Positions 5,869 to 24,457 of a DNA stretch of 37,234 bases are shown here, piece after piece (positions within the stretch are counted from its first letter, which is position 1; every line of letters starts with the position of its first letter). Source of the DNA: a virus; IMG/VR virus record IMGVR_UViG_3300030329_003188, positions 1 to 37,234 of that record, one strand, 5' to 3'. A program made the position numbers and the translations under genes. The notes beneath the pieces are model-generated. The model saw only the letters and a list, made by a program, of their open reading frames with translations. It did not search any database and was not told the origin of the DNA.

Positions 5869-5883
5869 GTAATTCTTTTCAAA

Positions 5884-5965
5884 ACCATTCTGAACCACAA
5901 TCGAAAACCAATCGAAACCAATCCAAAACATTCTGAACCACCAATCGAAACCAATCGAAACCAAC
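5884..5965. repeat. Iteron-like repeats, candidate origin or control site
   Basis: The decamer CCAATCGAAA occurs exactly at 5908-5917, 5941-5950 and 5951-5960, with close variants at 5898 and 5918 and a partial copy at 5961. ATTCTGAACCA occurs at 5887-5897 and 5930-5940, so the whole block is two imperfect copies of a 43-bp unit. The 10-bp phasing, the AT-richness and a palindrome 30 bp downstream resemble plasmid-type iterons, though the site also abuts a promoter. The stretch 5819-6151 holds no convincing gene. Confidence 0.65.
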
Positions 5966-5995
5966 CCACGATTTAGTCAGAGGAAAACCCATCCG

Positions 5996-6017
5996 GGATA
6001 AAAAGATCTTTTTATCC
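5996..6017. promoter_or_regulatory. Perfect 22-bp palindrome centred on AGATCT
   Basis: Bases 5996-6017 form a perfect inverted repeat with 11-bp arms (GGATAAAAAGA and its complement) and no spacer, followed by more T residues on the + strand. It may be an operator for a dimeric regulator, a cruciform or an origin element, or a weak bidirectional terminator insulating the island from the leftward operon. Confidence 0.6.
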
Positions 6018-6029
6018 TTTTATGGTTCG

Positions 6030-6067
6030 GGAACGTTGACGTTAACGTCAACCTTGCTATCTATAAT
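6030..6067 (+). promoter_or_regulatory. Hexamer operator array and TATAAT box, left border of island
   Basis: Four phased hexamers (GGAACG, TTGACG, TTAACG, TCAACC) fill 6030-6053 and include the 18-bp perfect palindrome GTTGACGTTAACGTCAAC at 6035-6052. A consensus -10 box TATAAT lies at 6062-6067. The array covers the region where the -35 would sit (TTGACG 6036-6041 is 20 bases away, longer than ideal). A protein bound to the hexamers would block or control rightward transcription into the island. Confidence 0.55.
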
Positions 6068-6151
6068 GTACCTTGCGCGCGCTCGTTTCTTGCGCTTATA
6101 TTGAGCACGTCCCCAGCAATAGTGCTGGGGCAACACACGGGAGCGCAAGCC

Positions 6152-6310
6152 GTGGAAAGTTACGAGGTAGTACTCGGCAACGGGGACGTCGTCGCCATTG
6201 CCGAAACAGACGCGCAATCCGCTATAGACTGCGCGATATTTTTGTTCGGATCTACCGTCGTGTCTGTTACACGTCTAACCGATACGGAGCCAGTTAATGC
6301 TGACGCCTAA
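6152..6310 (+). CDS. Hypothetical protein, first gene of island, 52 aa
   Basis: GTG at 6152 has a good ribosome site (GGGAG about 8 nt upstream), and the stop overlaps the next ATG by 14 nt. The product MESYEVVLGNGDVVAIAETDAQSAIDCAIFLFG... has a beta-hairpin (YEVVLGNGDVVAIAE), a helix (DAQSAIDCAIFLF) and a final strand (TVVSVTRL). It is a compact alpha/beta mini-protein; I recognise no family. Codon use (GAC, GTC, ACG) matches the rest of the island rather than the phage core. Confidence 0.65.
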   Translation: MESYEVVLGNGDVVAIAETDAQSAIDCAIFLFGSTVVSVTRLTDTEPVNADA

Positions 6311-7043
6311 CGATATCCGAAAGGGGGACACGATAGCGACGCGGGACGGGGAAGTGCTTACCGTCGTCGATAACGGCCGCGGTATCCGTCGTCGTGTTAC
6401 TATCGACGGGGACACGGGATCTACCTACGTGTTCGACTGGTATCGACGCTTTAACCCGGACGGGACCACGGACGGGATAGAGATACCGTCCGCGTATCTG
6501 AAAAAAGCGGAAACTATAGCCGGGGACGGCGTCCGTGTTTCTGTCCCAAAAAAGAAACAGCCCCTTGCTACGTTCCGGTCGTGGGGGGGACAGCGTCCCA
6601 CGGATAGTGACGACGCAATTACAGACGGGAATACGATGTTTTCCGTATCGGCGTTGACGCCGTCCACGTTGAAACGTCTAAGCCGTGTCAGCCGGGACTA
6701 CAAGCGCCTCGAGAAAGGCCACGGCGTCCGTCCCGTCCCCACAGATACAGTTAACACGATATGGACGGACGCCGTCGTCAACGCGCGCCGTCCTGCTACT
6801 ATTGCGGAAACGTCGGATATATCGACGACGGACGCGATAGGACAGACGGTAGACGACGTCCCCGTGTCCCGGTTGTTGTTGGATAACGGGGAAAGCGTCC
6901 ACGTAGACGCGCGCAAGCTTGCGCTTGCTCAAAAGCTTACCAAGTCCACAGAGATACGCGCGCGCGACAGTAGACACCCTATCGTCGGATATATCGACAA
7001 CGTCCCCGTGTATATCATCATGCCAGTTGCGCGCGTACGATGA
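6297..7043 (+). CDS. Island protein, unknown, 248 aa
   Basis: ATG 6297 overlaps the preceding gene, and the stop overlaps the next start (ATGA). Residues 1-50 (KGDTIATRDGEVLTVVDNGRGIRRRVTIDG) look like a small SH3/KOW-type beta barrel. The middle is polar with basic helices (TPSTLKRLSRVSRDYKRLEKG). The C-terminal 60 residues (VSRLLLDNGESVHVDARKLALAQKL...HPIVGYIDNVPVYIIMPV) form a second alpha/beta segment ending in hydrophobic strands. There is no Cys motif, membrane segment or nuclease signature. It is probably the partner of the Cys-rich protein encoded next. GGGGAC/GTCCCC hexamers are very frequent in the coding DNA. Confidence 0.7.
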   Translation: MLTPNDIRKGDTIATRDGEVLTVVDNGRGIRRRVTIDGDTGSTYVFDWYRRFNPDGTTDGIEIPSAYLKKAETIAGDGVRVSVPKKKQPLATFRSWGGQRPTDSDDAITDGNTMFSVSALTPSTLKRLSRVSRDYKRLEKGHGVRPVPTDTVNTIWTDAVVNARRPATIAETSDISTTDAIGQTVDDVPVSRLLLDNGESVHVDARKLALAQKLTKSTEIRARDSRHPIVGYIDNVPVYIIMPVARVR

Positions 7044-7741
7044 AAAAAAACACGCGCGTGATATGGAAAGATAGCTTGCGACAGTTGACAGTTACAGGCT
7101 TTTTGACGCCGTCCGTCAATCGTAAAACGGGGGACATGCTACAGGCTATGATATCCCCGGTGGACGTTTCTCCGATTGACGGGATAGCTACGGGGACGTC
7201 GCGCAACGGTTGTGACACGTGTCCTGTTAAGTCGGCTTGCTATGTAAACCCGCGAATGCCACAAGCCGTATGGAAAGCCAGCCGGGGACAGGCGCCGGTC
7301 AATTTTCTGGACGCCGTCCAGGACGCCACCAGGACGGCCGCAGCTGAGGCACCTATCCGGTTAGGTAGTTGGGGAGATATCGCAACCGTCCCCGTAGACG
7401 TGACAGAGACACTGTTGACGACGACGACGGGGACGCGTCGCGCGTGGACAGGATACACTCATATGTGGGCTTCCCCGTCCGTCGAGCGGGACTATCGGCG
7501 TCTGTTAATGGCGAGCGTCGAGTCTTCCGACGGACGCCAGCAAGCTAAAGAGAAAGGATTTCGGACGTTTAGAATATTGCACGACGGGGCAAAGCTTGAA
7601 ACGGGAGAAACGCTGTGTCCGTACTACAGCCACGGGGCACAGTGCCGAACCTGTCGCCTATGCGACGGCGCGCGTCCAAACGATAAGCGGTCGGATATAG
7701 CCGTACACGTCCACGGATCGCGAAAGGCTAACCTATCATAG
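7040..7741 (+). CDS. Cys-rich DUF7227-like phage/plasmid protein, 233 aa
   Basis: ATG 7040 overlaps the previous stop. Two metal-type clusters are visible: C58xxC61x5C67 (GCDTCPVKSACY) and C193x8C202xxC205xxC208 (CPYYSHGAQCRTCRLCDG). Between them are GSWGDIATVP (109-118) and WTGYTHMW (136-143). This order (CPxxCxxxxxCY; GDIA/AGDLP; GYTH; CPxxxxxxxxCxxCxLC; then a VHVHGS tail) matches a family of phage and plasmid proteins that I recall as DUF7227; no function is established. Eight Cys including one outside the clusters suggest zinc or an Fe-S cluster. No radical-SAM CxxxCxxC is present. Confidence 0.65.
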   Translation: MKKNTRVIWKDSLRQLTVTGFLTPSVNRKTGDMLQAMISPVDVSPIDGIATGTSRNGCDTCPVKSACYVNPRMPQAVWKASRGQAPVNFLDAVQDATRTAAAEAPIRLGSWGDIATVPVDVTETLLTTTTGTRRAWTGYTHMWASPSVERDYRRLLMASVESSDGRQQAKEKGFRTFRILHDGAKLETGETLCPYYSHGAQCRTCRLCDGARPNDKRSDIAVHVHGSRKANLS

Positions 7742-7749
7742 ATCTACTC

Positions 7750-7803
7750 GTGCTGGCTGTTGCGCTTGCGTACGCTGTAACACGATACAAGCGAAAGGGA
7801 TAA
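7750..7803 (+). CDS. Candidate membrane mini-peptide, 17-21 aa
   Basis: Directly after the Cys-rich gene, GTG 7750 opens MLAVALAYAVTRYKRKG and stops at 7801-7803. An ATA at 7738, overlapping the previous TAG, would lengthen it to 21 residues. A short hydrophobic stretch is followed by a positive tail, as in single-pass mini-proteins. The segment AYAVTR also ends the opposing leftward mini-protein at 7862-7966. The gene is very short and its start is uncertain. Confidence 0.3.
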   Translation: MLAVALAYAVTRYKRKG

Positions 7804-7808
7804 AAAAA

Positions 7809-7842
7809 GCGCGCCGTGTCAACCTGACACGGCGCGCTTTTT
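7809..7842. terminator. Strong bidirectional terminator between convergent operons
   Basis: GCGCGCCGTGTCA (7809-7821) pairs perfectly with TGACACGGCGCGC (7825-7837) across a 3-base loop. A run of seven A precedes the stem and five T follow it, so it works for both strands. It separates the rightward (6152-7803) and leftward (8655-7862) island operons. Confidence 0.95.
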
Positions 7843-7861
7843 CTTTGTGGTGCCCGGAAGC

Positions 7862-7966
7862 CTACCGTGTGACGGCGTAAGCCACATGGCCGAGTATGTA
7901 GGCAACCACGACGCCGGGGACGCTCAACAGCAAGCCAGCAAGCGCCGAACGAATTGCGTTTCTCAC
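7862..7966 (-). CDS. Single-pass membrane mini-protein, 34 aa
   Basis: GTG at 7966 overlaps the stop of the RHH gene (GTGA). The product starts MRNAIRSALAGLLLSVPGVV and ends AYILGHVAYAVTR: a basic N-terminus and one long hydrophobic helix (residues 8-31), a classical single-pass inner-membrane mini-protein. It is the last gene of the leftward island operon and ends just before the shared terminator. It is coupled to a DNA-binding RHH gene, an arrangement reminiscent of small toxin or membrane effectors behind their regulator, but no toxin activity can be inferred from sequence alone. Confidence 0.6.
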   Translation of the reverse strand: MRNAIRSALAGLLLSVPGVVVAYILGHVAYAVTR

Positions 7967-8124
7967 TTGGTCCTTCGCTTTCTTTTTAGGATTCGCACTG
8001 CAGCGTCCGTCCAGGTTTCCCCGTCCCGTTGAGCGTCAGCGACGGTGTCATATACTGACACGGGGACGCGCAAACTAACGGCGCGCGTCTTCTCCCCGTG
8101 TTTCTGTGGTCGTCCCCGTGTCAC
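7963..8124 (-). CDS. Ribbon-helix-helix DNA-binding protein, 53 aa
   Basis: GTG at 8124 overlaps the upstream stop (GTGA). The product opens with a basic AT-hook-like MTRGRPQKHGEKTR, then a hydrophobic/basic strand AVSLRVPVSVYDTV and two helices with the turn DGETWTDAAVRILKRKRR. This is the normal order of RHH (CopG/Arc/ParG/omega-type) repressors, which bind tandem short repeats as dimers through the strand. The GTTAAC-containing hexamer arrays at the island's promoters (6030-6053, 8675-8691, 8946-8999) are natural candidate targets. Autoregulation is an inference. Confidence 0.75.
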   Translation of the reverse strand: MTRGRPQKHGEKTRAVSLRVPVSVYDTVADAQRDGETWTDAAVRILKRKRRTK

Positions 8125-8420
8125 GCTTTCTCCCCCCGTACGGCGTGGTCGATAACGTCGTCGATGTCGTTAGACTCGATGATAAGTTTAGGATTGACTG
8201 TTCCGTCGTCTTTGTACAGATAGAAACGAAAGCCGAACCCACCAAAGTCTCGAGCTTGCGGATCCGCGGCGTCCACAGATACCTTGTAGCGTCCCCATTG
8301 CCACGACGGGCAAGAGTCGTTCCCGTATGACACGTCCGTCCAGCCGTTATCCTGCAAGGCGTCTACCACGGCCTTCTCTGGCCAGAAGTCCTCGTTGAAT
8401 TGTTCCTTGTAGAGAGTCAT
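8121..8420 (-). CDS. Island protein, unknown, 99 aa
   Basis: ATG 8420 overlaps the previous stop (ATGA) and the stop overlaps the RHH start. The product MTLYKEQFNEDFWPEKAVVDALQDNGWTDVSYGNDSCPSW... combines a helix (PEKAVVDALQDNGW), strands rich in aromatics (WGRYKVSVDA, FGFRFYLYKDD) and an acidic C-terminal helix (ESNDIDDVIDHAVRG). It looks like a compact alpha/beta domain. I recognise no family. The composition matches the island. Confidence 0.7.
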   Translation of the reverse strand: MTLYKEQFNEDFWPEKAVVDALQDNGWTDVSYGNDSCPSWQWGRYKVSVDAADPQARDFGGFGFRFYLYKDDGTVNPKLIIESNDIDDVIDHAVRGEKA

Positions 8421-8590
8421 GACGCTTTCCTTTCGGTGTAATAGTGTCGGTAGTTTCCGTCCCGCTCGATCGACAGCGTCCGGGATCCCGTCGTGCTTAC
8501 AGTGTAGTAAGCGTCTTCGCTGGTTCGGTACGTCCTCAGTTTCTCGGCCATGTCGGTACGAGATATTGAGCTATGCTTGCGTGTCCTCAT
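8417..8590 (-). CDS. Island mini-protein, basic, 57 aa
   Basis: ATG 8590 shares a base with the stop of the 21-aa leader (TAATG), and the stop overlaps the next ATG (ATGA). The product MRTRKHSSISRTDMAEKLR...EDAYYTVSTTGSRTLSIERDGNYRHYYTERKAS has a basic start, one helix and three short strands, with net positive charge. A small nucleic-acid-binding protein is plausible. Supported by double coupling and a G-rich ribosome site. Confidence 0.65.
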   Translation of the reverse strand: MRTRKHSSISRTDMAEKLRTYRTSEDAYYTVSTTGSRTLSIERDGNYRHYYTERKAS

Positions 8591-8655
8591 TACGTCCCCC
8601 TACTGGTAAGTGTGTAACACGGGGCGCTTGCGCTTTGGTGACGATACGTCGTCAT
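8590..8655 (-). CDS. Candidate 21-aa leader peptide of leftward island operon
   Basis: ATG 8655 has a G-rich ribosome site (GGGGG, about 6 nt upstream) and the frame (MTTYRHQSASAPCYTLTSRGT) ends exactly at the next gene's ATG (TAATG). It is the first open frame after the promoter at 8701-8729. It could be a translational leader that opens the downstream ribosome site, or a real mini-protein. Confidence 0.35.
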   Translation of the reverse strand: MTTYRHQSASAPCYTLTSRGT

Positions 8656-8674
8656 GTTGTGCCCCCGTTGACAC

Positions 8675-8691
8675 GTTAACCGATTGTTAAC
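8675..8691. promoter_or_regulatory. Paired GTTAAC operator at leftward start site
   Basis: GTTAAC occurs at 8675-8680 and again at 8686-8691, 11 bp apart, i.e. on one face of the helix. They lie just downstream of the leftward -10 box, over the expected transcription start. They share the GTTAAC core with the border arrays, so the same regulator may bind all three. Confidence 0.5.
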
Positions 8692-8700
8692 GTATTACAG

Positions 8701-8729
8701 AATATAGGGGCGCCTCTGCATTAACGCAA
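8701..8729 (-). promoter_or_regulatory. Sigma70-type promoter of leftward island operon
   Basis: Read leftward, TTGCGT (8724-8729) is followed by a 17-base spacer and TATATT (8701-8706). The spacing is ideal and the first ATG is about 45 nt downstream. The GTTAAC pair covers the start region. Confidence 0.6.
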
Positions 8730-9128
8730 CACGTAAACAGGGGGAGCGTAATAATAAAGTTATCCCCGGCTTCCGGGTTCGCTTGCGCGTAGCGTCCCGT
8801 CTGTAGCCGTTAAGGGGTATAGAGAGAAGACACCGGGGATTGTCGATACCGAACCCCGTCCTCTATTGTGTGCCCCTATACGGACGTCTATCACCCCGCC
8901 TTCAAGCCTATCCCTCACTTGAGGCACAAGGGGGGGCGGTTGACCTTAACGTTAACGTCAACGTCAACTTTAAACTTAACGTTAACGTCAACGTTAATTG
9001 AAGGTGAAGCCGAACCAGGGGGACTACGGGGGCTATTGCACGTCAGTGTCTATATCATTACCACTTCCGCATGGTTGTGTAATCTGATGTGGGGTGTTAT
9101 TGTTTGGGATGGAGGAAATGATGAATCA
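8730..9128. other. Intergenic region with hexamer array, right border of island
   Basis: No convincing gene lies in these 399 bases. An open frame from 8868 exists only because the array happens to be open (it would read as alternating Leu/Thr/Ser). Nine contiguous, phase-locked hexamers fill 8946-8999: TTAACG, TTAACG, TCAACG, TCAACT, TTAAAC, TTAACG, TTAACG, TCAACG, TTAATT. TTGACC at 8940-8945 may be a tenth. The 17 bases 8979-8995 occur inverted at 6032-6048. I see no good promoter between here and the gene at 9129. Confidence 0.65.
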
Positions 9129-9365
9129 ATGTTGATTAGACAGAATGTGATGTTGGAGGAGGGCCATGTGGCTTGGTTGCGTGGTCAGGGTCCATCGATG
9201 AGTGAGGTTGTGCGGGAGTTGATTAACGTGGCGATGGACAAGCCTTCGTTCGACGATGATGTGCGTGAGCAGTTGGCTCAGTTGCGTCGGGAGGTGGATC
9301 ATTTGAAGGAGCGTTCAAGTGGCTTGACTGGTTTACTCGACAAGGGTGTGATGTTTGTTGGATGA
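9129..9365 (+). CDS. Ribbon-helix-helix-like protein with coiled-coil tail, 78 aa
   Basis: ATG 9129 follows GGAGGAAATG; upstream in-frame sequence runs into the hexamer array and is unlikely to be coded. Residues 1-38 (MLIRQNVMLEEGHVAWLRG, then PSMSEVVRELINVAM) fit the RHH pattern: a strand with alternating residues, helix 1, a G-containing turn and an S-EVVRE helix 2. The rest is a charged coiled coil (DDDVREQLAQLRREVDHLKER), as in regulators that oligomerise. It is the first gene of the rightward late region and sits right behind the hexamer array, so it is a second candidate binder of those sites. Confidence 0.65.
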   Translation: MLIRQNVMLEEGHVAWLRGQGPSMSEVVRELINVAMDKPSFDDDVREQLAQLRREVDHLKERSSGLTGLLDKGVMFVG

Positions 9366-9608: not shown

Positions 9609-9870
9609 TCAGGTGCTGGCTTTGGATGATGCCGCGCCTTATGATGATGTTGTGCGCGCGATGATTTTTGATTCGGGCATGGAGTCTACGCTGGTGGATA
9701 TTTCTTGTGGCACTTTGGATGACATCCACAGCCTCCGTACTTCTCTTAATTTGCTTCAGGATCGTCAGGCGCTCCATGAGAAGATGATGTCGCAGCGGCT
9801 TTCCAATCTTGAATCTGATATGCAAAACATCATTGCGACTCTGCAGCATATAGCGAGGAATCTTGGCTAA
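9598..9870 (+). CDS. Hypothetical coiled-coil protein, 90 aa
   Basis: ATG 9598 lies inside the last codons of the previous gene. The product MERSQVLALDDAAPYDDVVRAMIFDSGM... has an acidic N-terminal half (DISCGTLDDIHSLRTSLNLLQD) and a C-terminal helix with heptads (MMSQRLSNLESDMQNIIATLQHIARNL). It stops at 9870, overlapping the TTG start of the terminase small subunit-like gene. Small helical proteins are common just before terS, sometimes as packaging helpers; that role here is guesswork. Confidence 0.6.
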   Translation: MERSQVLALDDAAPYDDVVRAMIFDSGMESTLVDISCGTLDDIHSLRTSLNLLQDRQALHEKMMSQRLSNLESDMQNIIATLQHIARNLG

Positions 9871-10438
9871 GTCTCTGTCAGAGCAGCAAAAGCAGGCGAT
9901 TCACTATTTGGTGATGGATCGCTGGACCAAGGGAGATCTCAACGCTGCGGTTGCCGCCAACGTGGGTGTTTTGCCGGTAACCATTACGAAATGGCGTAAG
10001 TCTTCTCTGTTCAGAGAGGAATACGACCGTCAGGTCAAATTATATCGGGCAAACTTCGATGACGTACAGCTGGCAGACCGCAAGGAGCGGGTCAAGAAGC
10101 TGGAGGCTATCTACGAGAATCTGACGGATTCCCAGACTGCCATGAAGATCAAAATCCTTTCTGCCATCCGTGCCGAGGTTGGAGATGATAAAATCGAGGT
10201 AGAAGTTACACACCAGGGTGCAGTGGGCGTGAATCTACCGCCTCGAGCTTCAACTTACGAGGAATGGAACAAGCAGAATGCCATCATGGATAAAGATCGC
10301 ATCGTAGATGCAGAAGTTGTCGAGGAACCGCCTGTCGAACCCCCTGAAAAGGTGATTTCGGAACTTCCTGCCGGTTTTTCGACCACAAAAAATGCTATTT
10401 CTCGAGTAAATGACCAATTTCCAGTGGGAACCCCATGA
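9863..10438 (+). CDS. terS: Terminase small subunit-like protein
   Basis: TTG 9863 with a GAGGAA ribosome site overlaps the previous stop. Residues 1-55 form an HTH like that of many small terminases: LSEQQKQAIHYLVMD, then a second helix with NAAVAANVGVLPVTITKWRKSSLFREEYDRQ, matching the usual 'AA..vGvs..ti..W.k...F' pattern. Residues 60-110 are a helical oligomerisation-type region with KERVKKLEAIYENL, and the C-terminal 80 residues are acidic and Pro-rich (VVEEPPVEPPEK). It would recognise the packaging site and load TerL. It lies two genes upstream of terL, as expected; a pac site may be within or near this gene. Confidence 0.7.
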   Translation: MAKSLSEQQKQAIHYLVMDRWTKGDLNAAVAANVGVLPVTITKWRKSSLFREEYDRQVKLYRANFDDVQLADRKERVKKLEAIYENLTDSQTAMKIKILSAIRAEVGDDKIEVEVTHQGAVGVNLPPRASTYEEWNKQNAIMDKDRIVDAEVVEEPPVEPPEKVISELPAGFSTTKNAISRVNDQFPVGTP

Positions 10439-11681: not shown

Positions 11682-11741
11682 ATGGCAGAGAAAAAAGCAG
11701 CCTACCGACGCATAGAAGAAATTTTGAGTAATCTTGCCTGA
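11682..11741 (+). CDS. Candidate 19-aa leader overlapping terL start
   Basis: ATG 11682 opens MAEKKAAYRRIEEILSNLA, which stops at 11739-11741 just after the TTG start of terL at 11734. The peptide is helical and reads like a genuine protein start. It may be a coupling leader for terL, which has a poor ribosome site of its own, or the real N-terminus of TerL reached by a +1 frameshift or hidden by an assembly indel. Confidence 0.35.
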   Translation: MAEKKAAYRRIEEILSNLA

Positions 11742-13110
11742 CGAAGTCTGGAAACCCCAACTCGGACCCCAGGAAAAGGCGATCCGGGCGGCGTTCATCG
11801 AAGAGTTGTTTTTCGGTGGAGCCAGAGGAGGAGGCAAGACCTCTTTCCTTATGGGAGACTTTGCAGCCGATGTGCAAGAAAACGGCTCCGCATGGAGAGG
11901 GATCGTCTTCCGGCGAACCTATCCCGAACTCGATGAAGTCGTCGAAGAAGGCAAGCGGGTACTCTACAAAGCCTTCCCCGGAACTGAATACAAAGTAGGC
12001 GTCCACGAATTTCGCATACCACATGCAACCGGTGATGTGGTGCTTCGCCTGCGACACATGGAGAACGTCGGGGATGCAGACCATTACATGGGGCACCAGT
12101 ATACCTGGATCTCGTTCGACGAGTTGCCCAACTGGCCCTCCCTCGAAGCCTACAAGAAACTTAAAGCCTGCCTCCGCTCCACCGCGGGTGTGCCGAACAT
12201 GCGGATTCGGTCTACAGGAAACCCCGGTGGAGTGGGGCACCAGGCTGTCAAGGAATACTTCATCGATCCTGCCCCCGAGGGCGAAGTCGTCATCCAGGAC
12301 GATCAGTCCATTAACCCTCGGATGTTTATCAAATCCCTTGTCACAGACAACCGAATCCTGCTCGCTGCCGACCCCGGATACATCGACCGACTCAAAGGCG
12401 TCGGAGATGAGCATCTGGTTAAAGCGTGGCTCGAAGGAGATTGGGATTCCTTTGTCGGACAGTATTTCACGTCATGGAGCAACGAGTGCGTCATCCCCTC
12501 GTTTCCCGTCCCCGACTCATGGCCCCTGTTCGGGGGGCTTGACTACGGCGAAGCTTCGCCTACCTCTTTTGGACTCTACACTATAGACTTTGACGGCAAC
12601 ATCTATCGTATCGGTGAGTACTATCAAGCAGGCGCTGCTGCATCGACCCATGCGTACGAGATCGACAAGATGATCCAGTCGAATCCTTTTACGGGTGGGC
12701 GACCGCCTGCTCAGATTTATGCAGATCCATCGATGTGGGCCAAGCGGAGGCTCACGGAAGCGGTGACGCACTCGCCCTACGATATTTTCTCCGAGCAGGG
12801 ATTGCATCTCACCAAGGGGAACAACGACCGCATCACAGGATGGAGAGTCATCAACGATGCGCTGACCAAGAAGAAGTTTTATGTGTTTGGAGGATGGAAC
12901 GACAACCTTACTCGAACACTACCCGCTCTACCAAGATCGACATCGAACCCAGAAGATGTGGACACGCATTCGGACGACCATGCAGCCGATGAACTCCGAT
13001 ACGCGATGATGCACATCTATCGACCATCACTGCCCAAACATGACGCCGTGCGGAACCCGTTCTACGGAGGCAACGTGTTGGATAGTCTGCCAGCAAGGAA
13101 AACCGCATGA
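11734..13110 (+). CDS. terL: Terminase large subunit (TerL)
   Basis: The 458-aa product carries the full packaging-motor signature. WKPQLGPQEKA is the usual entry. FFGGARGGGKTSFL (26-39) is Walker A. YTWISFDELPNW (123-134) is Walker B with Asp129 and catalytic Glu130, and RSTGNPGGVGH (159-169) is the coupling motif. The C-terminal RNase H-like nuclease shows FGGLDYGE (Asp270), IYADPSMW (Asp331) and a DTHSDDHAADELRYAM motif near residues 415-435. It pumps DNA into the prohead and cuts the concatemer. The start is TTG 11734 with a weak ribosome site. The end overlaps the portal gene (ATGA). Confidence 0.95.
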   Translation: MPDEVWKPQLGPQEKAIRAAFIEELFFGGARGGGKTSFLMGDFAADVQENGSAWRGIVFRRTYPELDEVVEEGKRVLYKAFPGTEYKVGVHEFRIPHATGDVVLRLRHMENVGDADHYMGHQYTWISFDELPNWPSLEAYKKLKACLRSTAGVPNMRIRSTGNPGGVGHQAVKEYFIDPAPEGEVVIQDDQSINPRMFIKSLVTDNRILLAADPGYIDRLKGVGDEHLVKAWLEGDWDSFVGQYFTSWSNECVIPSFPVPDSWPLFGGLDYGEASPTSFGLYTIDFDGNIYRIGEYYQAGAAASTHAYEIDKMIQSNPFTGGRPPAQIYADPSMWAKRRLTEAVTHSPYDIFSEQGLHLTKGNNDRITGWRVINDALTKKKFYVFGGWNDNLTRTLPALPRSTSNPEDVDTHSDDHAADELRYAMMHIYRPSLPKHDAVRNPFYGGNVLDSLPARKTA

Positions 13111-20120: not shown

Positions 20121-21710
20121 ATGGCTATTGACGGCGAAGACATTCAATTAGGCCCCTGGACCGGCGGAGTGTGGTATTCCCGCCCTGAAGAGGATGTGGC
20201 TGAAGACGAGATTTCCGCCATGGAAAATGTTCGTATTCAGCCTGCAGGAGCCTGCGAGAAGCGTCCGGGGACTGTGTCCTATAAGTCCGCTGCCGCCTAC
20301 ACCTCCAATCCTACCTGTACAATGATCGCAGAGTTTACTGTGCCGCCCTCTACGACCCACGTCGTGGCGGTATTTGGCACAGCGATCTACCAATACTCGG
20401 CAGCATCCTCCCCCGTATGGCAGGCTATTACAGGAAGCCTGACGATTACTGCGGCAGACGATAATACGTTTGAATGGGCAGTGGACGAGGCGACCGGAAC
20501 TTTGCTGGCAACCAACGGCGTAAACCCCCCTTGGAAGTGGACGGGGTCAAGCACCGCCGCCGCGGCTGACGTGGACTCGAGGTTTACCACTGCGGAGCAT
20601 GTCGCCTTTTGGGACAACCGCGTTTGGTGGGGCAATGTTGATACGTCATATGATCGGCTATGGTATTCCGACATCGCAGACATTGACACTGTCGGAGCAA
20701 CGTCGTTCTACCAGTTCGGCCACCCCATCACGGCATTGGTCCCGACCCGCAATGCGCTGACCGTGCATACAACGGGTGGCATCTATACGCTGGTGCCGAC
20801 AGGCAATGCCGACATCCCCTATCAGCAGCAGCAGAAGACCGGAAGAGAGAACTCCGGTGGTGTAAGAGCAGGGCGCGCGGCTTTGAATGGCCGTGCAATA
20901 GTTGTGCTTCCGGGCGACAGGCAGCTTTTCCTGCGCGCAGACGGGATTTACCTGTGGGACGGGGAAGACGAGGTCGAGAAAAAGTCTTTTCAGCTTGACC
21001 TGGGCTACTGGCCCGAGTTGGTCACCAGCCGCCTGACGCAAGCGTTTGCCGTCTATTATCCCAAGGAAGCCGAGGCGTGGTTTTGGGTTCCTTATGGGAC
21101 TGGCCAGACGGCAATGAATCACATCATCGTCTATTCGGATCGGCACGATTGTTGGTTTGGCCCGATGACCGGATCGGGTTCCTACTTCTACCGCAACTGT
21201 GCGGCCTCTATCGACGGAAAACCCCATGCGGGGACTCTTAATTCGTCGGGGTCGATTGGCGGTAAAGTCATGGACCATGAGCCTAACGACACCTACAAGG
21301 ACGACGACGCATCTGCCAGCGGAATCGCTATCCGTGCCTACTTCCGCACAGGTGCCCCGGCTCCTGAAGGTTCTGGAGTGCGGCTCCGCTGGCTCTATAC
21401 TCGGACCTACTACGACGCCACAGGGAACTACAATATCACGGTCAACCAGGAGTCTTCTGGCGTCACCGGAACAACAAAGACTTTGAATGTGTCTGGCGGT
21501 GGATTCGATTTGGACGAGGACAATCTTGACGAGGCCGAACTTGGCACCGTAAGAATGCTGGCCTACGACACAGATCTCAGTGAGTATGACCCGCACTCGA
21601 GCATCAAATTCACAAACAACACTATCAATGAGTTTTTCCGTATTCGTAGAACACATCCGACGTACAAGAACATTGGCCGCAAGCGCCGTATCGGCGCAGG
21701 AGTTTCATAA
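20121..21710 (+). CDS. Tail nozzle/stabilisation-type protein, 529 aa
   Basis: The gene begins immediately after the connector stop. The product is beta-rich throughout, with repeated strand motifs (HVVAVFGTAIYQYSA, TTGGIYTLVPTG, DRQLFLRADGIYLWDGED) resembling a beta-propeller, and opens with LGPWTGGVWYSRPEEDVAEDEISAMENVRIQPAGACEKRPG. This 'G..W..G...s.p...a.d.is..eNv.i...G..ekRpG' entry is common in tail tubular protein B, P22 gp10-like and other nozzle proteins of short-tailed phages. It would form the tube or nozzle end of the tail. The end overlaps the next ATG. Confidence 0.65.
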   Translation: MAIDGEDIQLGPWTGGVWYSRPEEDVAEDEISAMENVRIQPAGACEKRPGTVSYKSAAAYTSNPTCTMIAEFTVPPSTTHVVAVFGTAIYQYSAASSPVWQAITGSLTITAADDNTFEWAVDEATGTLLATNGVNPPWKWTGSSTAAAADVDSRFTTAEHVAFWDNRVWWGNVDTSYDRLWYSDIADIDTVGATSFYQFGHPITALVPTRNALTVHTTGGIYTLVPTGNADIPYQQQQKTGRENSGGVRAGRAALNGRAIVVLPGDRQLFLRADGIYLWDGEDEVEKKSFQLDLGYWPELVTSRLTQAFAVYYPKEAEAWFWVPYGTGQTAMNHIIVYSDRHDCWFGPMTGSGSYFYRNCAASIDGKPHAGTLNSSGSIGGKVMDHEPNDTYKDDDASASGIAIRAYFRTGAPAPEGSGVRLRWLYTRTYYDATGNYNITVNQESSGVTGTTKTLNVSGGGFDLDEDNLDEAELGTVRMLAYDTDLSEYDPHSSIKFTNNTINEFFRIRRTHPTYKNIGRKRRIGAGVS

Positions 21711-24457
21711 TGGCAGAAGGTTCATTCAGCGTCTTCAAAAACCCAGACCTTGTCAACATTACTGGCAAGGGCTTCGACAAGAAACGTCTTCGCCGCGGTA
21801 ACCAGGGGTTTGATCCCGGCATTCAGATCGGAGATCTGGACACGCAAGGCAACCGCAGCATCTTTGCGGACGGGACTCTTGTCGGCGCGACTTCGGGCCG
21901 AAATGTCATGGGGCACTCGCAGGGGTTCGGCAGCTTCATGCCCACGACAACGTCCTCCTCTGTCGGCGCAAATAATGCAGTAGCAGGCGGCGGGGCGGCT
22001 CCTCCCGGCGGAGGCGGTTCGGGCCAAGGGTCTGTCAACCCCATAGCCGACGTAGAGCCTCTTCCGCCCTTAGATCCCCTTTCGACCCACGTCTCCGACG
22101 CTGACCCGCCGCGTGGCTCGAATCAATTTGAACTTGACGAAGATCTGTTTCCCGAGAAGCCTATTGAGGTCACCACTGAATCTGATCCGTACGTCAACCC
22201 CCAAGAATTTCGGACAGACCGAGGGGGTGGGGCCTTCGATACTGCTGACCAAAGGCTTGCGGCATTAAACGACCTTCGGTCCCTGCCTCCGATGCTGCAG
22301 GCACTCCAACAGATCGGGCTGGACCCAAGCTCTCCGTTGGCGCAGATGCTCAACAGCATCCAAACCGGGGGCACGACAAGTGAACGGTTTCGTAATTGGG
22401 ATACGCCGGATCGGTTCTCTGCATTCCTTGACAGGCTCGAGGGAACCGGGGGCATTCTTGACGATATCTCTGCGTTTGAAACGCCCTCATCGATAGACAA
22501 AATCAGAAATTCTCTCTTAGAATCTCAAGGCTTTTTAAGGGATATCGCAGGCGGCTCATTTGGCGGTGGCCCCGGAGATTTCTTTCCTCGTGGGGGGCAG
22601 TTGGCTGATGCCTTGGAGCAAACGGGGCTATTGCGCGACAAAGTTACGAGTTTGGCAGAAACCGATATACCCGACCTGCGGACGGAAATTGGACAGTTGC
22701 CTACCGCGTTTAACATTAACCCCATCAGTGAGGCGATTGGTGGTGCGCGGACGGATATCTTGGCCTTGGCCAACTTGCTGGGCGTGGACGACATTCTACC
22801 ACTGATCGAACGCCAGAATCTACTGGATGCCTTGCCTGGAGCAGGTTTGGTTGCAAGTGACATCTTGCCGAGGGTTCGCAAAGCGGATCTGACCGATGCG
22901 CTGGGGAGCCAGCGACTTACTCCTGACCAGTTTTTGGGACAGGTTGGCCAGAAGGATCTGGCCAAGGCGCTCGGAAGCCAGCGACTCTCCCCCGATCAGT
23001 TTCTGGGGCCGGTTTTGCCCCAGCACTTAGCCAGTGCGCTGGGAGATCAACGGATTACTCCCGAGCAGATCCTGCCGCGACTAAGGCCAGAAGACTTAGC
23101 CAGCGCCTTGGGAAGTCAGCAGCTTACTCCTGACCAGTTCTTAGGGCGGGTCGGAGAAGAGGATCTGGTACAAGCCTTGGGTAGCACACGACTGAGGCCC
23201 GACCGGTTCTTAGGACAGGTCGGAGAGGAAGATCTGGCCCGAGCTTTGGGCAGTACGCGCCTCGGTGCGGACCGGTTTTTAGGACAGGTTGAAGAAGAGG
23301 ATCTGTTACAAGCCTTGGGCAGTACGAGACTCACTCCCGATCAGTTTTTGCCGGACATCAACGTAAGAGATTTGGGTTTACCAGATGTTGGTGTAAGAGA
23401 TTTGGGTTTACCGGATGTTGGCGTGAGTGATTTGGGCCTGCCAGATGTTGGCATTGGCGATCTGGGTCTGCCCAGCCTTGGTGTAAGCGATTTGGGCCTG
23501 CCTGACATCGGCATTGGCGATTTGGGCTTTCCAAGCATCACCGTAAACGATCTGCTCGACAGGGTATCGGGTGATGTAAATATCACTGGAGAGCCGTTTG
23601 ACGATTCTGGAATACGTAGTATGATCGGCGACCTCCGCACAGGTCTTTCCGGGGACATTCGCAGTCAACTCGCAGACCTTGGCCTGCCTCAATTCTTTGG
23701 AGACGTAGGCGCAGGCGGCGTTGGCGGACAACTGGCTGATCTTCGCACGGCAGTGGAAGGTATAACGCCAGAATATGGTGGGGTCGGCGGCGGTGAAGGT
23801 GGCGAGGGCGGCGAAATGGACTTGAGTGAGATTCTAAAGCGCCTTGACGCCCTTCAGGGCCAAATAGGTGGTTTGACGCCTACCGTACCTGGTGCGGGTG
23901 GAATCTTCGGTGATGTGCAGGACGCGATTCGCGCAGACCTTGCAGGACCGCAGACAGCTGCAGAACTCAGAGAAGACCCGCTTACAAAATCTATCCTGGA
24001 AGATCTGCAAGCGAAGTTCGCGCGCCGAGCGGAGGCTGACCGAGAGCAACTGAGTCGCTTTGGTGTCATTCGAGGCGGTGACACTATCGACTTGGCCAAC
24101 CTCCGGGCAGACGACCAGGCTCGCGCAGAACTTTCCGCACTTGCAGATGCGGCAGAAAGAGCAAGGCTCTTGAGAACTGCAGGCATTACCGCAGGCACAG
24201 ACCTCGGTCGAACCCTTTCCGACAGAGAAATCGCTCGAGCCGAACTGACAGGCGTACTTGGCGACCAACAGACGCTTGACTCACGCCAAGCTGACATGGA
24301 CGTGATTGCTTCGATCATTGCGGCGCTCGATCCTGCCGTAGAATTTGATACGGGAGATGAGTTGCAGAAAGGGTTTGGAGCGGCAATGCTCGAACTGCTG
24401 AACCTGCCGCCCTGGATAGTGGAAAACCTCAGAACGAAACTTGATCTTCCGAGATAG
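21710..24457 (+). CDS. Repeat-rich virion protein, 915 aa
   Basis: ATG 21710 overlaps the nozzle stop. Residues 1-170 are Gly/Pro-rich and disordered. Residues 384-544 are seven tandem 23-residue repeats (consensus begins QFLGQVGEEDL and continues with an ALGSTRLTPD-type half), with a diverged eighth copy just before. Residues 550-609 are six tandem decapeptides (VGVRDLGLPD type), with a decayed seventh to 619. The remaining 300 residues include a Gly-rich linker and a helical C-terminus (ARRAEADREQLSRFGVIRGGDTIDLANLRADDQARAELSALADAAERA). Length, position and composition suggest an internal/ejection or tail-tip protein. I know no family with these repeats. No lytic-transglycosylase motif is seen. 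Confidence 0.7.
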   Translation: MAEGSFSVFKNPDLVNITGKGFDKKRLRRGNQGFDPGIQIGDLDTQGNRSIFADGTLVGATSGRNVMGHSQGFGSFMPTTTSSSVGANNAVAGGGAAPPGGGGSGQGSVNPIADVEPLPPLDPLSTHVSDADPPRGSNQFELDEDLFPEKPIEVTTESDPYVNPQEFRTDRGGGAFDTADQRLAALNDLRSLPPMLQALQQIGLDPSSPLAQMLNSIQTGGTTSERFRNWDTPDRFSAFLDRLEGTGGILDDISAFETPSSIDKIRNSLLESQGFLRDIAGGSFGGGPGDFFPRGGQLADALEQTGLLRDKVTSLAETDIPDLRTEIGQLPTAFNINPISEAIGGARTDILALANLLGVDDILPLIERQNLLDALPGAGLVASDILPRVRKADLTDALGSQRLTPDQFLGQVGQKDLAKALGSQRLSPDQFLGPVLPQHLASALGDQRITPEQILPRLRPEDLASALGSQQLTPDQFLGRVGEEDLVQALGSTRLRPDRFLGQVGEEDLARALGSTRLGADRFLGQVEEEDLLQALGSTRLTPDQFLPDINVRDLGLPDVGVRDLGLPDVGVSDLGLPDVGIGDLGLPSLGVSDLGLPDIGIGDLGFPSITVNDLLDRVSGDVNITGEPFDDSGIRSMIGDLRTGLSGDIRSQLADLGLPQFFGDVGAGGVGGQLADLRTAVEGITPEYGGVGGGEGGEGGEMDLSEILKRLDALQGQIGGLTPTVPGAGGIFGDVQDAIRADLAGPQTAAELREDPLTKSILEDLQAKFARRAEADREQLSRFGVIRGGDTIDLANLRADDQARAELSALADAAERARLLRTAGITAGTDLGRTLSDREIARAELTGVLGDQQTLDSRQADMDVIASIIAALDPAVEFDTGDELQKGFGAAMLELLNLPPWIVENLRTKLDLPR
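22859..23341 (+). repeat. Seven tandem 69-bp coding repeats
   Basis: The DNA encodes seven in-frame 23-residue units. Later copies are closest to each other (for example GAGGAAGATCTGGCCCGAGC and its neighbours), which suggests recent expansion at the 3' side. A diverged unit precedes the block. Confidence 0.9.
23357..23536 (+). repeat. Six tandem 30-bp coding repeats
   Basis: GATTTGGGTTTACCAGATGT-type units recur every 30 bases and encode DLGLPDVGV-type decapeptides. Alternate copies carry GVSD or GIGD, so the block may have grown by doubling of a 60-bp pair. It abuts the 69-bp repeat block. Confidence 0.9.

Follow-up and report, generated by a model that had tools for sequence, protein, structure and literature searches.

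The DNA analyzed here, hereafter the window, is the whole 37,234-nt stretch of IMG/VR virus record IMGVR_UViG_3300030329_003188 (positions 1-37,234), from an uncultivated marine phage. Directly ahead of its packaging genes, the window carries an array of phased hexamers that uses a lineage-specific word, occurs across relatives together with an RHH-like gene, and belongs to a set of constrained sites (Table 1). From these sequence comparisons we propose, giving the idea about even weight, that the array is a candidate cooperative multi-dimer site of the RHH-like protein encoded at 9129-9365 (RHH1), which would thereby control its own packaging/late operon. Along 8940-8999, RHH1 dimers would bind side by side to the palindromic repeats, and array-bound RHH1 would set expression of the operon in which it is encoded. 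If each dimer covered two hexamers, about five would span the array; this 12-bp footprint is more plausible than a 6-bp step, which would be tight for adjacent RHH dimers. The same word is contained in two isolated palindromes, 8674-8692 and 6036-6051. Each would be a single site of lower strength, through which RHH1, or a regulator related to it, would act on leftward genes and on early rightward ones. If true, this would provide a small, testable pair of protein and array that exists in at least two natural classes of specificity and would help to read how RHH strands choose DNA words. The pair would also serve as a lineage marker of a group of uncultivated marine phages.

Table 1. Coordinates of the array and associated features in the window
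Feature	Position	Strand	Remarks
Isolated perfect palindrome TTGACGTTAACGTCAA	6036-6051		Just upstream of TATAAT (6062-6067), ahead of rightward genes
RHH2, second RHH-like ORF	7963-8124	-	In leftward genes behind the 8674-8692 palindrome
Isolated palindrome CGTTAAC-N5-GTTAACG	8674-8692		Presumed start of leftward genes, including RHH2
Main array	8940-8999		TTGACC, then nine TYAACG-type hexamers in phase; candidate multi-dimer site
Conserved noncoding core GAAGGTGAAGCCGAACC	9000-9016	+	Candidate pac/cos core or leader signal
RHH1, RHH-like protein	9129-9365	+	First gene of packaging/late operon and first gene after the array
TerS, terminase small subunit (HTH)	9863-10438	+	phrog_2538, E = 1.8e-7
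TerL, terminase large subunit	11734-13110	+	phrog_2, E = 3e-34; query for finding relatives

A phased hexamer array precedes the packaging operon

The packaging operon that follows the array runs in the order RHH1, TerS, TerL. Between 8946 and 8999, the window reads TTAACG, TTAACG, TCAACG, TCAACT, TTAAAC, TTAACG, TTAACG, TCAACG, and TTAATT. A sequence-only reading had described nine phase-locked TYAACG hexamers in this interval, and they are indeed present, far above what simulations produce: six of the nine units are exact, one has a single mismatch, two have two mismatches, and the phase is unbroken. The array starts one unit further left than that reading saw, with TTGACC at 8940. TRF reports a period of 6 with 8.7 copies over 8946-8997, and a 24-bp higher-order period scores better. 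CGTTAACG, GTTAAC, and AACGTT are palindromic, which makes the array a series of overlapping inverted repeats as well. When up to two mismatches are allowed, TYAACGTYAACG has 28 matches in the window, versus 6.65 ± 2.96 expected and a maximum of 15 in 100 shuffles.

Since expansion of simple repeats is easy, the array might be a chance or neutral tandem repeat. We consider this extremely improbable: the phased-array score is 25, whereas 200 second-order Markov simulations reach 8 at most, and the array is kept in the close relative L010 (TerL 99% identical) while the upstream flank has diverged by 20%. The array of L010 differs at 8984, where the change from TTAACG to TTGACG yields another word of the set, and at the last base, 8999; it also has extra repeat units at its left edge. 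Identity between the window and L010 is 80% over the 245 bp upstream (8694-8938), 96.3% over 8946-8999, 96.1% over the leader (9000-9128), and 89.5% over the RHH1 gene, while 8665-8693, around the isolated palindrome, is identical at 29 of 29 positions. By these values, constraint is stronger on the array, on the leader, and at the 8674-8692 site than on the intervening DNA, and it is at least as strong on the leader as on the RHH1 gene.

In the window, TTAACG or CGTTAA occurs 18 times: 13 times in 6040-8997, once inside the RHH1 gene (9223), and at four scattered positions. This concentration in the intergenic stretches of 6.0-9.0 kb counts in favor of the RHH1-site reading. A consensus promoter scan called no promoter at the array. 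The reading frame of RHH1 stays open through the array (8868-9365; LTLTLTSTST...); it is also open in L010 and closed in L015, and this is probably incidental.

Two isolated palindromes share the word of the array

The palindromes at 6036-6051 and 8674-8692 had been missed by the sequence-only reading. The second covers roughly +2 to +20 relative to a weak, left-facing candidate promoter that we read by eye (-35 TTGCGT at 8729-8724, -10 TATATT at 8706-8701). We infer promoters at both palindromes, and the consensus scan called neither by-eye candidate. An exact 16-mer scan of viral contigs found the 16-bp palindrome in 49 contigs, none of which has a phased array. An exact 18-mer scan of viral contigs returned, besides L010 (the same contig as L089), L090 and L091, whose matches are in apparently coding DNA with no relation to the array region and were discarded.

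Three intergenic sites with a common word would also suit operators of a different phage regulator, such as RHH2, in a circuit of three sites whose strong one is the array, the others being 8674-8692 and 6036-6051. In favor of this, the 8674-8692 palindrome precedes the leftward genes, RHH2 among them, and shows no change in L010. L015, however, has an array, yet no RHH2 homologue was found in its corresponding region, and we regard such a circuit as unlikely.

As for the surrounding leftward genes, a strong, bidirectional terminator-like hairpin (18 bp, perfect) at 7804-7842 separates them from the rightward genes. A 99-aa ORF at 8121-8420 (-) is apparently missing in L010, in which RHH2 comes directly after the gene at 8417-8590. 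The leftward early genes include a Mom-like DNA modification gene (792-1295, -; phrog_1384, E = 5e-40), which is adjoined by a RusA-like resolvase gene (424-918, -).

RHH1 and RHH2 are RHH-like proteins

The two RHH-like ORFs reported near the array (7963-8124 and 9129-9365) exist as described, and both are kept in L010. RHH1 matches the Pfam RHH_1 profile with E = 0.11 and 12.9 bits, below the curated cut-off of 20.5, and RHH2 gives no match to this profile. RHH1 displays a CopG-like pattern, with an N-terminal strand (RQNVML) and two helices after it, and its structure model (pLDDT 64, low confidence) has an extended N-terminus and helices at 11-17, 24-36, and 43-71, an order that suits an RHH fold. 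A Foldseek search with this low-confidence model found no PDB match at E ≤ 0.001 and no RHH relative. In comparison with L010, pN/pS is 0.41 for RHH1, C-terminal indel included, and 0.19 for RHH2, which indicates purifying selection on RHH2. We count against the RHH1-site reading that the RHH identity comes from a sequence pattern and a low-confidence model.

The array and the RHH-like gene occur together in relatives

The wider TerL relatives, 60-72% identical, are uncultivated phages represented by IMG/VR contigs, and the TerL proteins of cultured or named phages are at most 36% identical to that of the window. Viral-contig queries with DUF7227 and TerS returned nothing, or L010 only, and a phage and plasmid nucleotide search with the sequence gave no matches. 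A TerL search of bacterial genomes for the host found only relatives of 24-45% identity from mixed phyla, and an Rfam search gave sub-threshold chance matches only.

To measure repeat content beside each core, shared 6-mers were compared with those of shuffles in the 130 bp 5' of it. This self-similarity reaches z = 19.8 in the window, 22.3 in L010, 20.0 in L014, and 18.2 in L015, while all other assessable cores, which have no RHH-like gene seen beside them, show z ≤ 3.3. In L218, the 160 bp 5' of the core contain 198 shared 6-mer pairs versus 29 ± 10. L221, the one additional contig covering the site that a search with the RHH protein brought up, has an array (by eye) and the core, and carries little independent weight since it is near-identical to L015. 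A dense array thus lies directly 5' of the core in six of the six contigs with both an RHH-like gene and the site (window, L010, L014, L015, L218, and L221), and the RHH1-type gene is at the same position in L010, L014, L015, and L218. Conservation of the array in relatives with the RHH gene, on which the sequence-only reading had made its claim depend, is found in all those seen that cover the site. The L031/L222 contig has an RHH-like gene and ends before the core, which places it outside this count.

To judge absence of RHH, ORF lists were read for some of the other contigs, and 25 records were searched with the RHH_1 profile; small divergent RHH genes may exist elsewhere, since the profile also missed the L015-type RHH-like proteins. 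The RHH-positive contigs are probably one clade and their co-occurrence one event, so the association is suggestive rather than decisive. This probable single clade counts against the RHH1-site reading. So does the promoter scan, which called none at the array, and so does L015, where ~400 bp separate the array from the start of the RHH-like gene and the array is not seen simply to overlap the promoter of that gene.

The repeat word changes together with the RHH strand

Two word classes are found among the contigs with the array. The window and L010 have TYAACG words and the N-terminal RHH strand IRQNVML, while L014, L015, L218, and L221 have CC(A/T)ATGGCC-type (CCWATGGCC-type) words and the strand EQIHILC. 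Identity between the classes is 28% for RHH1, 53% for TerS, and 72% for TerL. Over the aligned parts of L218 and L015, RHH is 74%, TerS 59%, and TerL 81% identical, and the TerS recognition helix reads TTTVRRW in L218 versus PVTVSRW in L015, although the word is the same. The helix of the window, PVTITKW, is about as different from that of L015, with a wholly different word. In this three-way comparison, the word follows the N-terminal strand of RHH1 and not the TerS helix, a concordance that, in a sample of only two classes, is a lead and not proof.

A conserved core adjoins the array

The sequence directly 3' of the array, GAAGGTGAA(G/C)C..., is a core also found in ~20 relatives, where it lies 1.2-3.2 kb upstream of TerL. 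We read it as a DNA or RNA signal because third codon positions do not vary; a coding explanation (EGEP...) was rejected since the third-position variation is unlike that of coding DNA. A match to GAAGGTGAACC in L104, an unrelated contig, is apparently coding sequence and was set aside.

This core brings in the main rival to the RHH1-site reading, a packaging initiation site (pac or cosB) at which TerS would bind the repeats and the concatemer would be cut at 9000-9016. In favor of this, ~20 relatives keep the core just before their packaging operon, TerS is present in every relative examined whereas RHH is not, and repeats of other sequence lie near the core in relatives without a neighboring RHH-like gene. 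The location beside the terminase genes, with array and core preceding TerS and TerL, is that expected of such a site, and a packaging function is still conceivable because the array abuts the conserved core there. In this uncultivated marine phage group, the core may serve as the packaging site. On the other hand, the word is the same in L015 and L218 despite the changed TerS helix, most core-bearing relatives have no array beside the core, words recur at 6036 and 8674, and contig ends are not piled up at the core. Overall, we find this packaging-site reading possible but fairly doubtful.

Contig starts ≤150 bp upstream of the core are seen only in L040, L019, L029, L076, and L026, each at its own position; being scattered rather than flush, they were rejected as cos evidence. 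The L015 and L042 records have terminal overlaps of 103 and 131 bp, which indicate circular assembly and settle neither cos nor headful packaging.

Other repeats are found near the core in relatives. In L024, L025, L028, L035, and L036, an inverted repeat, ATACTAACGATAA...TTATAGTGAGTATGG, was seen by eye ~50-100 bp 5' of the core, the position of the array in the window. L080 (3212-3384), L084, L085, L087, and L088 carry another array, (GGGTACACT)n, which contains GTACAC/GTGTAC palindromes; it is 3' of the core position, none of these contigs has an RHH-like gene seen next to the core, and almost all GTACAC words of the L080 record lie within its array. These other arrays in relatives without a neighboring RHH-like gene count against the RHH1-site reading.

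It is also conceivable, though quite unlikely, that the RHH-like protein assists packaging as an accessory factor and, bound to the array beside the core, marks phage DNA for the terminase. Packaging specificity in the clade would then come from the fast-changing RHH/array pair, and not from TerS alone.

The array resembles known repeat sites only in part

The hexamers recall the pac site of phage P1, whose repeated hexamers are methylation sites, and the repeated hexamers of P1 speak for a packaging site. Both lie near packaging functions and the window phage has its Mom-like modification gene, but the array of the window has no GATC and its word does not track the TerS helix. As in lambda cosB, repeats adjoin a conserved core that precedes the terminase genes; the R sites of cosB, however, are 16 bp long and present in three copies, whereas the array consists of hexamers. 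The MetJ protein of Escherichia coli binds the met boxes as cooperative RHH dimers on tandem palindromic 8-bp boxes. Tandem palindromic words and the proposed cooperative RHH dimers are common to both systems, while MetJ differs by its 8-bp boxes, its SAM co-repressor, and its chromosomal metabolic regulon.

RHH regulators such as omega are known to bind uninterrupted short repeats (PMC9499535). Omega (ParB) of plasmid pSM19035 is an RHH-type protein that binds 7-10 consecutive WATCACW heptads, requires at least two adjacent repeats for high-affinity binding, and works with ParA (PMC9499535). The window likewise combines an RHH-like protein, an uninterrupted short-repeat array, and several intergenic sites. 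The proposal that the array is an omega-repressor-like operator is partly supported, since the array is kept with the RHH-like gene and word and strand change together; a strict likeness to omega is not supported, because the unit of the window is 6 bp rather than 7, TYAACG with internal dyads versus the non-palindromic WATCACW. Moreover, the array lies in a phage packaging region, in contrast to the copy-number and partition genes of pSM19035, and the ParA partner found in pSM19035 was not found in the phage record, which may be incomplete (no PF13614 match at E ≤ 1, controls positive). With ParA not found, the RHH_1 match sub-threshold, and the low-confidence RHH1 model without an RHH relative, we do not file the system as an omega member, although it may function like omega as a transcriptional regulator.

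RHH proteins are also centromere binders of some plasmids (PMC9499535), and the repeat array sits in a noncoding stretch, as would a replication origin or partition site. We hold this to be very improbable, since ParA was not found in the record and the window has a better candidate for an origin at 5880-6020, where AATC-type repeats adjoin an A+T-rich stretch. A temperate attachment site was rejected, as no tyrosine integrase was found in the record.

The 5880-6030 region, a candidate replication origin, consists of iteron-like (AACCAATCGAA)n repeats followed by the A+T-rich stretch, and lies at the cumulative GC-skew minimum. AATC-type repeats are also found upstream in the relatives L015, L037, L070, L078, and L080. 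Elsewhere in the window, tandem repeats of 69, 60, and 30 bp occur at 22885-23527, within a long ORF (21710-24457) of the structural region.
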